Positions 22,091-27,838 of a stretch of 47,001 nt of DNA are shown here, one piece after another. The stretch covers positions 1 to 47,001 of the forward strand of contig JAONKT010000003.1 in the NCBI GenBank assembly GCA_028377625.1, in the 5' to 3' direction. Both the position numbers and the translations under genes were made by a program. The first letter of the stretch is position 1; each line of letters starts with the position of its first letter. This DNA is from Candidatus Nitrosopumilus sp. GTDB lineage: Archaea; Thermoproteota; Nitrososphaeria; Nitrososphaerales; Nitrosopumilaceae. A model generated the notes under the pieces. That model made no database searches and was not told the DNA's origin. It saw only the letters and a list, made by a program, of their open reading frames with translations.

Positions 22091-23842
22091 TTAAAATAAA
22101 CTATTTGCTATCTTTTTTAATGCTATTATTTCATCTTCTTCTTGTCTAATTTTCTTATCTATTACTCGAAGCATTGAATCATTCCAAACATGTTGGGAGA
22201 AAAAATTATGTTTTGTGTTGGCCAATTCAATTTCATCATCAACTACTGTGTCTTCTAAAAATTTTGTCACAATTACATCTGTAATTTTTAAAATTCTATT
22301 ATTTAGCTTAAAACTACGAAATATGGGTTCCAATTTTCTAATATCTGATTTAAAATCTCCTTTGGATTCTAGAATTTTTTTGTGTAATATTCTAAAATAA
22401 ACTGCTACAAAGAATAATGTTGCATAACGTTTTGTTTTATGACCTCCTTGTTTTCCATATTTTAGTGATTTTTTTGCAAATTCTTTTACAAGATATGGAT
22501 ACAGTATAACCCTATAATCGTCTTTGAGATTTTCATTAAAGATTTGATCATATTTACTTCCTCGTGGAAGAAATTGAGATGGCGAACTGTATGATTCAGT
22601 TGGTCTTTGTTCAATACCTGCTACTAGTGATTGAATTGCATCTTTGGCAACAATGACTTTTTTATGATTATCTGGAAGATAGTTATTGTAATCTGTATCT
22701 CCGTTGTATTCTAATTGTTTTGACTTTGTTTTTGTATCAAATGAACCTGCTTGAATTTCATAAAAATAACCAGAATTTTTTAATTGCGATTTAATTGATT
22801 TGTGAAAGTCCATTAGTGAAACTAAATCTTTTCCTCTAACTGAATTTTGAGAATTTCTATATTTTGTAATATTATTTTGTTCTTGTTCATCATCAGCTTT
22901 GATTATAGTTACTGTCATTGATCCATCCATATTTTTTGTTCTCTTTGAATGATCTAAAATTGAATTTGATGTTTGTGCACCATTAACAATTTGTGGAGCA
23001 AATAATTCTATCATGTTTTCTCCTAGTTCTGTAAAATCACTAACTACTATTGTGATTCCATTATTATAAAAAAAGAATTTTCCTGGATTTGTTTGTAAAG
23101 TATCTCGTAATCCTTTGTTGACTGTAGTTTTAAATTGCATCCACTGTCTGATATTTGATTCAAAAACATAGTCTCTATTTTTACTTACAAAATCTGTTAA
23201 TTCACGTAGTTTTAAAATTCCTAGAATAGTATTTTCATGTCTAAGCATTCTTTCAAGTTTTATGGATGATTTTTTTCCTGCAGCTGGTTTTTTTATTCTA
23301 TCCCATAATCTTTGAATTATTTTCTCTTCATCTATGATTTCTACTACTTCATCTTGATAATCGACTTTTTGATCAGTAACATAACAACATTTTATTTTTA
23401 AATTTTTTTCTTTAATTTTTGTAACGAGTTGGGCTAATTCTGGTCTCATTTTTGTTATATCTTTTGTAAGTAATCTCTTTGCATCTTCTTTGAATTTTGC
23501 AATTGCTTCAAGTGAATGTGATGTACCATATTTTGATTGAAATAATCTAACTGTATTATCTGAAAAGTCTACTGGTAAATATGCATCAATTCCTAGATCA
23601 TTTGCTCCATCTACTATTGCATCAGCTGCATCATCTTCTGTAGCCTCAAATACTCTTGTTAAAATCCATTGAAGGAAATTATTTCCTTTCTCTACTTCAT
23701 TTTTTGAATCTTGTGCATAATCGGATATACTTTCTCTGATATTTTCTGCAAAACCTTCTAGAGGAGGACTAGAATTTTTTTCTACTAATAGCGCCTGTGA
23801 TCCTGGTATGTATTCTAATAGACCATTTGGATTTTGTGACAT
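22091..23842 (-). CDS. AIPR (abortive infection/phage resistance) family protein
   Basis: FFYNNGITIVVSDFTELGENMIELFAPQIVNGAQTSNSI is the AIPR hallmark; N-terminal GIDAYLPVDFSDNTVRLFQSKYG resembles a D-xn-QxK nuclease motif. Confidence 0.88.
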   Translation of the reverse strand: MSQNPNGLLEYIPGSQALLVEKNSSPPLEGFAENIRESISDYAQDSKNEVEKGNNFLQWILTRVFEATEDDAADAIVDGANDLGIDAYLPVDFSDNTVRLFQSKYGTSHSLEAIAKFKEDAKRLLTKDITKMRPELAQLVTKIKEKNLKIKCCYVTDQKVDYQDEVVEIIDEEKIIQRLWDRIKKPAAGKKSSIKLERMLRHENTILGILKLRELTDFVSKNRDYVFESNIRQWMQFKTTVNKGLRDTLQTNPGKFFFYNNGITIVVSDFTELGENMIELFAPQIVNGAQTSNSILDHSKRTKNMDGSMTVTIIKADDEQEQNNITKYRNSQNSVRGKDLVSLMDFHKSIKSQLKNSGYFYEIQAGSFDTKTKSKQLEYNGDTDYNNYLPDNHKKVIVAKDAIQSLVAGIEQRPTESYSSPSQFLPRGSKYDQIFNENLKDDYRVILYPYLVKEFAKKSLKYGKQGGHKTKRYATLFFVAVYFRILHKKILESKGDFKSDIRKLEPIFRSFKLNNRILKITDVIVTKFLEDTVVDDEIELANTKHNFFSQHVWNDSMLRVIDKKIRQEEDEIIALKKIANSLF

Positions 23843-24786: not shown

Positions 24787-25542
24787 ATGACTTGGTCTTT
24801 TGATTCTCATATTCATTTATCTGATTCTATCTATCTACCTGAAATTAATTTTATAATATCTCAAATGAAATTTCTTAAAATTAAAGCGTGCTGTGTTTCT
24901 ACAAATGTTAAAAATTCTTTAGAAACTTTATCCTTATCAAAACAAAGTGATCTTGTTTTACCTTTTATTGGGATTCATCCTGAATATGCAAATGATGATC
25001 TTGAAAAAATCAATAATTTGATAGAATTAAATCAAAATAATATTTCAGGCATTGGAGAAATTGGATTGGATCCTACTTATTGTATAAATGATGATGATAT
25101 GAAAAGACAAATTCAAGTTTTTGAATCATTACTTTCATCTGCAGAAAAATTTCATAAACCTGTATCTATTCATTCTAGAAAAAGTCTTGATGATATTTTT
25201 GAAATAATGACTTCATATGACACTAGTCATGCATTGCTACATTGGTTTGATGGGAGTAAAAAACAACTTCAGAAAGCAATGGATATGGGTTTCTTTGTTT
25301 CTTTTGGACCTGTAATGGTTTATGCTAATGATAAACAGACTTTATTGTCAAAAACTGATGAATCAAAAATCCTTGTCGAGACTGATGGACCAGTTAGATT
25401 TTCTAGATGTTTTGAAATGAAATCTGCTCAGATCACTTTTATTCCAAGTGTGATTTTTTGTGCCTCTAAAATTCTTGAAAAAACATTTGATGATATGTCA
25501 TTACTGCTAGAAGAAAATGCAAAACGTTATCTTGGAATATAG
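24787..25542 (+). CDS. TatD-family metal-dependent hydrolase
   Basis: SFDSHIHLSD, PFIGIHPEYA, GIGEIGLDP, PVSIHSRKSLDD, ILVETDGPV. Confidence 0.93.
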   Translation: MTWSFDSHIHLSDSIYLPEINFIISQMKFLKIKACCVSTNVKNSLETLSLSKQSDLVLPFIGIHPEYANDDLEKINNLIELNQNNISGIGEIGLDPTYCINDDDMKRQIQVFESLLSSAEKFHKPVSIHSRKSLDDIFEIMTSYDTSHALLHWFDGSKKQLQKAMDMGFFVSFGPVMVYANDKQTLLSKTDESKILVETDGPVRFSRCFEMKSAQITFIPSVIFCASKILEKTFDDMSLLLEENAKRYLGI

Positions 25543-25572: not shown

Positions 25573-25926
25573 GTGGATAGAATAAAACGTCTTTCATTTG
25601 AAGTATTAACTGACCATAAATCTAAATTTGGTGAAGACTTCGTTGAAAATAAAAAAGCATTAAACCAAGTTTCAATTATCCGTTCTAAAGGCCTAAAAAA
25701 TAAGGTTGCCGGATATATTACAAGATTTATAAAAAAAGAAATTCGTGAGGAGAAATTCAAACAAGATAGAAGTAGTTATGATTCTTCAAATACTGAAGAA
25801 AAATCTTCTTTAGATGTCACAGAATCTGAGGATGTCTCTGAAACAGTTGAAGAAATTACTCTAACAAATGAAGAAGTAGAAACCATCATTCCTTCAACTA
25901 AATCTGTTGAAGAAAAAACTGAATAA
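25573..25926 (+). CDS. rps17e: 30S ribosomal protein S17e with acidic C-terminal extension (GTG start)
   Basis: DRIKRLSFEVLTDHKSKFGEDFVENKKALNQVSIIRSKGLKNKVAGYITRFIKKE. Confidence 0.9.
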   Translation: MDRIKRLSFEVLTDHKSKFGEDFVENKKALNQVSIIRSKGLKNKVAGYITRFIKKEIREEKFKQDRSSYDSSNTEEKSSLDVTESEDVSETVEEITLTNEEVETIIPSTKSVEEKTE

Positions 25927-25961: not shown

Positions 25962-26732
25962 ATGATTAATATAAAATTAATTGGCGGTGCCAAAAAATCT
26001 TTTAATTCTGATAAATTACAAATTGATGAATCTGATATTTCTATTAATGAACTACTTAAATTATTATTAAAAATAAAACCAGATAATACTGATTTTGATA
26101 TTGAAAATATTTTAATTGCAATTAATGGTTCGGATTCTTCTGCAATGGATGGAAAAGATACCATTGTACATGACAGTGATATTGTAAGTATTATTCCTGT
26201 AATACATGGCGGTTCATCTAAAAAATTACTTTTTGAAATAGAAAAAAAACAAATTCAAGTAATTGAAATCCGTGGTCAAAAGAAAGTCGATATAAAATTT
26301 ATTGATGATTTAAGAAAAAAATACCCAAAAATTAAATTTCAAGCTATATCTAGTAATTTTATTCTCAACCCCTCTCATCTAAAAAAAATTTTATACCTTT
26401 CAATTTATGCTGAAAAAAATAATATTTTATTATCTAATAAAATTGAAACTGATATTTTAATGCGTTTTGGACTAACATTACAAATTTCTAATGCAATTTC
26501 TTCAGCTGGTATGAAATCTTCAACTAATTTCATACTAATTGCAATTGGAAATAAAAATTATTTTAATTCACTGTACTCTGAATTATCTGATTCTTGTGTT
26601 CCCCTATTTTTAAAAAATAATAACTTGTTTTTAAAAAAATATTTCAATATTTCAAAAAAACACATGGATTCTGTATATTCCAAAAATTCGTTGGAAGATA
26701 TATTGGTTGAAAAAGCATCAGTTTTAATCTGA
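25962..26732 (+). CDS. Beta-grasp ubiquitin-like (MoaD/ThiS/SAMP-like) domain fused to KEOPS Cgi121-like domain
   Basis: N-terminus MINIKLIGGAKKSF...ILIAINGSDSSAMDGKDTIVHDSDIVSIIPVIHGG; C-terminus AISSNFILNPSHLKKILYLSIYAEKNNILLSNKIETDILMRFGLTLQISNAISSAGMK. Confidence 0.8.
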   Translation: MINIKLIGGAKKSFNSDKLQIDESDISINELLKLLLKIKPDNTDFDIENILIAINGSDSSAMDGKDTIVHDSDIVSIIPVIHGGSSKKLLFEIEKKQIQVIEIRGQKKVDIKFIDDLRKKYPKIKFQAISSNFILNPSHLKKILYLSIYAEKNNILLSNKIETDILMRFGLTLQISNAISSAGMKSSTNFILIAIGNKNYFNSLYSELSDSCVPLFLKNNNLFLKKYFNISKKHMDSVYSKNSLEDILVEKASVLI

Positions 26733-27248
26733 CATACTACGTTTAGTTTTTTCAAGACTAAGTATGTCTGATTTTTTTATTATTGAAATTCCGGTAACTA
26801 TTCCTAATATTTCAATTAAAATTATTTTATCTGGAAAATCCAACGATACTTTATTTTTTATTTTATTTGCTACTTTTGTAATTACTTCTTTACTTGAAAT
26901 ATCTGAATTTCTTTTTTCAATTAATATCCTATATGACTCCTTTTCTTCAATTTGATTTGACATACTTGAAATTGTTTTTTCAATTTCTTCTATTCCTGTC
27001 TCAATCACTCTTTCAATTGGTATGACTCTTAGACAATACCTGATACTCCAGGGCTCATCTAGTAGCATTTCTTTCATTTTTCTAACTACTTGGATTGGGT
27101 CCAATTTTGTTTCAGCAGTAATAATTCCAGACATACTACTTACTGAAATTTTAACATCAGAATCACCTAATTCATCTAAAATATCTATTAATTCGTCCTC
27201 CGTATCCCCTTCTAAATGTCTAGCACATGTAACTATTAGATTCATCAT
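26724..27248 (-). CDS. THUMP-domain (Tan1-like) RNA-binding protein
   Basis: MNLIVTCARHLEGDTEDELIDILDELGD...WSIRYCLRVIPIERV...YRILIEKRNSDISSKEVITKVANKIKNKVSLDFPDKIILIEILG. Confidence 0.85.
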   Translation of the reverse strand: MMNLIVTCARHLEGDTEDELIDILDELGDSDVKISVSSMSGIITAETKLDPIQVVRKMKEMLLDEPWSIRYCLRVIPIERVIETGIEEIEKTISSMSNQIEEKESYRILIEKRNSDISSKEVITKVANKIKNKVSLDFPDKIILIEILGIVTGISIIKKSDILSLEKTKRSMSD

Positions 27249-27838
27249 ATCATAATGTCCTTTATTTTCAATGCCCCTTCTCTAATAATTTTGATCTCTT
27301 CATTTTCTATTTCAATTATTGTTGATTCACCTTTGCTTGTAATTGTTCCTCCATTAAGAAATACGTCATAACCTTTCATATTTTTTATACAATCTTTTGG
27401 ATTTGTATATGAAGAATTTCCAGAAATATTTGCACTAGTTCCTACTAATAATTTACATTCTTCTAATAATTTTAAAGTGCATTTAGAATCTGGAATCCTT
27501 ACTGCAATTTTATTTTCTAAGTTTAATGATTTTTTTAATTCTTTATCTGTTAATTTTAAAATTAATGTTAATGGACCTGGCCAAAATTTTTCTACAATTT
27601 TTTCAGTAAATTTATCGATTAATGCTATCTCCTTTACAATATCTAATGAATATGCTAATACTGGTAATGATTTTAATTTTGTTCTAGATTTAATTTCATA
27701 AATTCTTTTTACTGCATTTACATTGTATGGATTACATCCAATTCCATAAACTGTATCTGTTGGAAATATTACAATTCCTCCTTTTTCAACAATTTGAATT
27801 ATTTTTTTAATTCCTTCATCATCACAATTTACTTTCAA
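27245..27838 (-). CDS. Threonylcarbamoyl-AMP synthase (Sua5/YrdC/YciO family)
   Basis: GGIVIFPTDTVYGIGCNPYNVNAVKRIYEIKSRTKLKSLPVL; LVGTSANISG. Confidence 0.95.
   Translation of the reverse strand: MKVNCDDEGIKKIIQIVEKGGIVIFPTDTVYGIGCNPYNVNAVKRIYEIKSRTKLKSLPVLAYSLDIVKEIALIDKFTEKIVEKFWPGPLTLILKLTDKELKKSLNLENKIAVRIPDSKCTLKLLEECKLLVGTSANISGNSSYTNPKDCIKNMKGYDVFLNGGTITSKGESTIIEIENEEIKIIREGALKIKDIMI

Follow-up and report, generated by a model that had tools for sequence, protein, structure and literature searches.

A candidate JAMM-processed precursor: the internal Gly-Gly of the Ubl-Cgi121 fusion in Nitrosopumilaceae

Described Ubl precursors and the Ubl-Cgi121 fusion

The fusion of a ubiquitin-like (Ubl) domain to Cgi121, a subunit of the KEOPS complex, was reported in Thaumarchaea in 2010, together with its ribosomal protein S17e neighbour and a second fusion in which a Ubl is joined to an E1-like enzyme, by Makarova and Koonin, who proposed either a link to tRNA modification or the regulation of KEOPS by SAMPylation (PMC2948915). 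Here, we consider the version encoded in a 47,001-nucleotide stretch of Candidatus Nitrosopumilus sp. (GCA_028377625.1, contig JAONKT010000003.1, positions 1 to 47,001 of the forward strand; henceforth the window), which has the same architecture and the same S17e neighbour. An earlier note on this DNA presented the fusion as new; it is, however, already known, and what we add is a mechanism that we infer from the comparisons made below. In the literature searched, we found no experiments on Ubl-Cgi121. Our favoured reading, to which we give a probability of roughly 0.55, is that the protein is a precursor that would be cut after its internal Gly-Gly by a JAMM protease, so that the Ubl is freed and Cgi121 can work in KEOPS.

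There are precedents for such processing. The linear SAMP1-MoaE and MoaD-MoaE fusions (PMC4443979; DR0402 of Deinococcus) share with the window protein an N-terminal Ubl, an internal Gly-Gly, a direct join between the domains and the presence of a JAMM protease. HvJAMM1 cuts SAMP1-MoaE precisely after the Gly-Gly in vitro; in vivo, this cleavage requires both HvJAMM1 and the Gly-Gly, and the pathway fails if the fusion stays uncut (PMC4443979). The Haloferax fusion was, however, engineered and has MoaE as its partner, whereas in the window the partner is Cgi121 and the cleavage putative. The ubiquitin/SAMP precursors of Caldiarchaeum likewise bear residues after the Gly-Gly and are matured by the archaeal Rpn11/JAMM proteases CsRpn11 and CsJAMM, but the tail of CsUb comprises nine residues, against a whole domain in the window protein (PMC6043591). 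The thaumarchaeal Ubl-E1 (MoaD-MoeB) fusion, recorded in 61 of 98 Thaumarchaeota in a 2024 survey (PMC11237513), occurs in the same genomes as Ubl-Cgi121 and has the same kind of internal Gly-Gly, while differing in its E1-like partner, its AGG tail and its neighbour, thrC. Finally, Urm1 homologs are found near S17e in Sulfolobales (PMC2948915); unlike the fused Ubl of the window, the Saccharolobus Urm1 is a free gene, whose conjugation has been seen by proteomics (PMC12625751).

Domain make-up and the invariant Gly-Gly

The open reading frame (25962-26732, + strand, the coordinates given by the earlier note) starts with ATG and encodes 256 amino acids, with the following features:

25962..26213, + strand: Urm1/SAMP-type beta-grasp Ubl domain, residues 1-84, with the tail PVIHGG (Pfam, AlphaFold2, Foldseek)
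26208..26213, + strand: internal Gly-Gly, residues 83-84, a candidate cleavage point (61/61 invariance, all four Gly codons, predicted local distance difference test (pLDDT) <50)
26223..26729, + strand: Cgi121 (TPRKB) domain, KEOPS subunit, residues 88-256 (NCBIfam, Pfam, Foldseek, CCA-contact residues)
Tryptic peptide spanning the Gly-Gly: DTIVHDSDIVSIIPVIHGGSSK
Corresponding semi-tryptic peptide: DTIVHDSDIVSIIPVIHGG

Searched alone, the N-terminal half matches the Pfam models ThiS (1e-8) and Urm1 (1.6e-4), passing the curated Pfam cut-off; with 27.1 bits against the curated cut-off of 70 for the NCBIfam equivalog Urm1_like (NF053661), it is by this score a relative and not a member of that equivalog. 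The C-terminal half alone matches Pfam CGI-121 (2.5e-6, 28.1 bits, cut-off 25) and the NCBIfam KEOPS Cgi121 model NF011465 (4.5e-41, 140.5 bits, cut-off 40). An AlphaFold2 model of the fusion built from 61 orthologs (mean pLDDT 91, predicted template modelling score 0.67) has, in its N-terminal half, strands and a helix in beta-grasp order. Foldseek matched this half to SAMP1 (2l52, best E 4e-5), Ta0895 and Urm1, and the Cgi121 half to Bud32-Cgi121 structures (best E 3e-9), with 4ww7, 8up5, 7kjt and tRNA-bound KEOPS entries among its matches. The family models and the fold together rule out a chance resemblance of the two halves. The earlier note had called both domains from the letters alone, placing the Gly-Gly at 26208-26213, and these identities stand; its extent for Cgi121, about residues 90-215, does not, as the domain spans 88-256 and its border lies nearer to the Ubl. 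Since the first Cgi121 strand begins at residue 88, there is almost no linker between the domains. The residues Gln28, Gln71, Ile72, Ile76 and Gly80, by which Mj Cgi121 contacts the CCA end of tRNA (PMC7718258), correspond to Q127, Q174, I175, I179 and G183 of the window protein, all invariant among its orthologs (alignment A2, 61 rows, 50-86% identical to the window sequence), while Met60 and Lys56 of that contact are not kept, being T163 and N159.

Against this background, the behaviour of the junction is distinctive. HGG is present in 61/61 sequences of A2 and in 20/20 fused loci drawn from other Nitrosopumilaceae genera, so that the loss of Gly-Gly in close orthologs was as little seen as the failure of domain assignment, both of which the earlier note had named as outcomes that would refute it. 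Across the alignment, IPVIHGG (residues 78-84) is the lowest-entropy seven-residue window of the whole protein, and conservation drops immediately past the Gly-Gly, with residues 85 and 86 varying. Among 110 distinct fused sequences, which were chosen by a pattern containing HGG, so that invariance itself rests on A2, all four glycine codons are used at both Gly83 and Gly84; selection therefore acts on the protein. Residues 82-84 (HGG) are the sole stretch of the AlphaFold2 model with pLDDT <50; being flexible, HGG is not retained on account of local structure. Members of the Ubl family carry the Gly-Gly at the mature C-terminus, and here it is internal in the translated protein and invariant. 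That the Gly-Gly is a functionless relic in the fused protein might be argued from its loss in a single lineage, MAG (metagenome-assembled genome) G050 discussed below, but its invariance at such divergence, with every glycine codon in use, makes this hardly credible. Internal initiation of Cgi121 was also considered and rejected, as a start-like codon occurs within 16 codons past the Gly-Gly in just 34/110 fused sequences, at no common position.

Fusion and fission at a fixed junction

A search of 201 genomes of the class with the 61-row profile found a single open frame encoding the fusion in 123/125 genomes of the window's family, Nitrosopumilaceae, the genes being split in G085 and G136. 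The fusion was present in all Thaumarchaea available in 2010 (PMC2948915); in our sample, by contrast, it is not universal, and outside Nitrosopumilaceae the majority of families in the order usually have Ubl and cgi121 as separate adjacent genes, after S17e. Among the split loci examined, the Ubl ends exactly at HGG in about two-thirds and has 1-9 extra residues otherwise. In five of these (L032, L033, L034, L041 and L048), cgi121 begins with an ATG embedded in the HGG codons (cATGGAGG), giving an 11-base overlap whose bases are read in two frames. At some other split loci, the two genes are in the same frame with one stop between them; therefore, the loss of that stop and of a short spacer suffices to fuse them.

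We rooted a maximum-likelihood tree of the Ubl and Cgi121 sequences from 70 loci at its midpoint and reconstructed changes by Fitch parsimony; this points to a split ancestor and seven changes between the split and fused states, a number made approximate by the rooting and by weak deep branches. The tree places fusions at the base of Nitrosopumilaceae, inside genus g42 (family f8) and in both G092 and G050, and fissions in G085 and G136. HGG is retained in every fused lineage except G050 (L046, around 880-1614), where the fused Ubl-Cgi121 has the tail LHCSAF. Neither E1 nor JAMM was found in G050, a MAG that is 82% complete and the single genome of its family examined; for these reasons, we do not use it as proof that the Gly-Gly depends on E1 and JAMM. 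In another MAG, G046 (L036:2297-3136), the gene between S17e and a separate cgi121 encodes a Ubl whose HGG is followed by a phosphoribosyltransferase (Pfam 3.5e-16). Such differing partners after one fixed Gly-Gly would be expected of a processing site.

The same distribution can be read differently, with the uncut fusion as the functional form. The Ubl would then be a permanent adaptor or regulator of KEOPS that brings partners or tunes Bud32/Kae1, and the Gly-Gly would be kept for binding. The near-universal fusion in the family and a fused Ubl without Gly-Gly in G050 are in keeping with this, as are the retained CCA-contact residues, with which the Cgi121 half should work in place. However, in the model HGG is flexible and contributes to no fold, the residues directly after it vary, and a fixed joint function is hard to square with repeated fission and with the other partner in G046. 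We hence regard a permanently uncut fusion as unlikely, if a serious alternative.

Candidate maturation machinery and proposed mechanism

In 61 Nitrosopumilaceae genomes (58 clean and ≥90% complete; nearly all ≥97% complete), a search with the Ubl profile recovered two Ubl families, Ubl-Cgi121 and Ubl-E1. No free Ubl gene was found in these genomes apart from the split loci of G085 and G136, one E1-detached Ubl and contig-end fragments, though a Ubl too divergent for the profile could escape. The E1-detached case is G167 (L220:1034-1312), in which the usually E1-joined Ubl stands alone and ends exactly at AGG-stop, the ThiF frame being on another contig (C15). JAMM proteases with intact motifs are widespread among the relatives, with JAMM genes in 56/61, mostly two per genome; the window's own genome encodes two JAMM proteins with the full HxHx7SxxD motif, HSHPKGEAYPSHTD and HSHPSGSAEPSVTD. 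NcsA was found in 57/61 relatives. Bud32 scored above cut-off in 27/31 genomes; the own genome, at 58.6% completeness, was not among them. The earlier note had proposed looking for a second Cgi121 and an E1-like enzyme: there is at most one Cgi121 match per genome, and the own genome has a Ubl-E1 at C21:4600-5922 (ThiF 2.8e-74).

The record of E1 is patchier. At E 1e-3, ThiF has no match in 19/36 chosen genomes and a weak match in three more, most of them >90% complete. We first took this as E1 loss that would speak against an E1-dependent use of the Gly-Gly, but set that aside since in most ThiF-less genomes thrC, the neighbour of Ubl-E1, is likewise absent or truncated by a contig end. Given this, and as all single-contig Nitrosopumilaceae among the genomes searched for Ubls have both of them, an assembly gap is likelier than loss. 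The region (L031:3377-5922 and the thrC loci) is a recurrent gap of marine MAGs, either lacking E1 together with thrC or coinciding with contig ends.

On the favoured reading, translation would yield Ubl-HGG-Cgi121, which the cell's JAMM/MPN+ metalloprotease would cut after the Gly-Gly. The C-terminal glycine of the freed Urm1-like Ubl could then be activated by an E1-like enzyme and serve in protein conjugation and/or in sulfur transfer, with NcsA as the likeliest acceptor, for 2-thiouridine at tRNA position 34 (s2U34). The freed Cgi121 would join Bud32 in KEOPS and bind the CCA end of tRNA for the synthesis of N6-threonylcarbamoyladenosine (t6A) at position 37. The fusion itself may provide 1:1 dosage or hold the Ubl latent until it is cut. 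Maturation by JAMM is favoured because a Gly-Gly within a peptide bond should be closed to E1, and because of the SAMP1-MoaE precedent (PMC4443979). The recurrent fusion and fission at the Gly-Gly, the variable residues after it, the lack of a free Ubl gene among the genomes searched and the presence of JAMM likewise favour cleavage. The exposure of the Gly-Gly by cleavage, one of two alternatives offered by the earlier note, is thus the one that comparison favours.

Several points weigh against this proposal. The evidence for cleavage comes entirely from comparison. Were the protein always cut promptly and in full, fission of the gene ought to be neutral, and yet the fusion persists in 123/125 genomes, which hints at some use of the joined form, for example in dosage or latency. 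Since the fused Ubl of G050 has lost the Gly-Gly, a Ubl can persist there without it. Several family MAGs without a detected E1 keep the fusion, for which an assembly gap is the likelier though unproven explanation. Moreover, the second Ubl, itself fused to E1, could take on part of the same functions.

The persistence of the joined form leads to a variant in which cleavage is regulated: the uncut protein would keep the Ubl and/or KEOPS in reserve or in an inhibited state until particular conditions lead JAMM to release them. This fits the kept Gly-Gly and the kept fusion alike, and has a parallel in Haloferax, where the enzyme is blocked by SAMP1 attached to MoaE, a block that HvJAMM1 lifts (PMC4443979). 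It is, however, indistinguishable by sequence from the favoured reading, and we consider it rather improbable.

Returning to the cleaved precursor, we entertain, tentatively and at somewhat under even odds, a broader proposal: as a rule, Nitrosopumilaceae would lack a free Ubl gene and produce all of their Ubl within Ubl-Cgi121 and Ubl-E1, such that JAMM would be obligatory for maturation and the amount of the Urm1-like modifier would be tied to that of a KEOPS subunit. This would constitute a prokaryotic parallel to the ubiquitin-ribosomal protein fusions of eukaryotes, which the proposed precursor resembles. If the fusion is indeed cut, these ammonia-oxidising archaea, which are very abundant in the sea, would depend on a JAMM protease to make a Ubl, and the supply of a tRNA-sulfur carrier or modifier would be coupled to the t6A machine.

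Gene neighbourhood and tRNA modification

The neighbourhood is conserved, as counted over 80 related loci:

24787..25542, + strand: TatD-family nuclease, conserved neighbour (Pfam 1.5e-48; 73/80 loci)
25573..25926, + strand: ribosomal protein S17e, directly upstream (Pfam 7.3e-16; 78/80 loci)
26724..27248, - strand: THUMP-domain protein, convergent neighbour (Pfam 3.1e-6; 80/80 loci)
27245..27838, - strand: TsaC/Sua5 L-threonylcarbamoyladenylate synthase, first step of t6A (TIGR00057 3.8e-50, above cut-off; 76/80 loci)

The adjoining Sua5/TsaC, along with the occurrence of both NcsA and KEOPS genes in relatives, accords with the other alternative of the earlier note, namely that the Ubl acts in cis as a scaffold coupling s2U34 and t6A37 on the same tRNA. 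The shared substrate would be narrow, however, as tRNA-Lys(UUU) is the main tRNA with both modifications, and nothing that we found supports the coupling specifically. Further, a Gly-Gly held in a peptide bond should be inaccessible to thiocarboxylation, as has been argued for SAMP1-MoaE (PMC4443979). We accordingly view coupling in cis as very improbable.

Two other features of the window deserve mention. The S17e protein (25573-25926, + strand) has an acidic C-terminal extension reaching about 50 residues past the NCBIfam model. Farther upstream, at 22091-23842 on the - strand, lies a gene for a protein of the AIPR family (Pfam 2.8e-57), whose name derives from abortive infection phage resistance.
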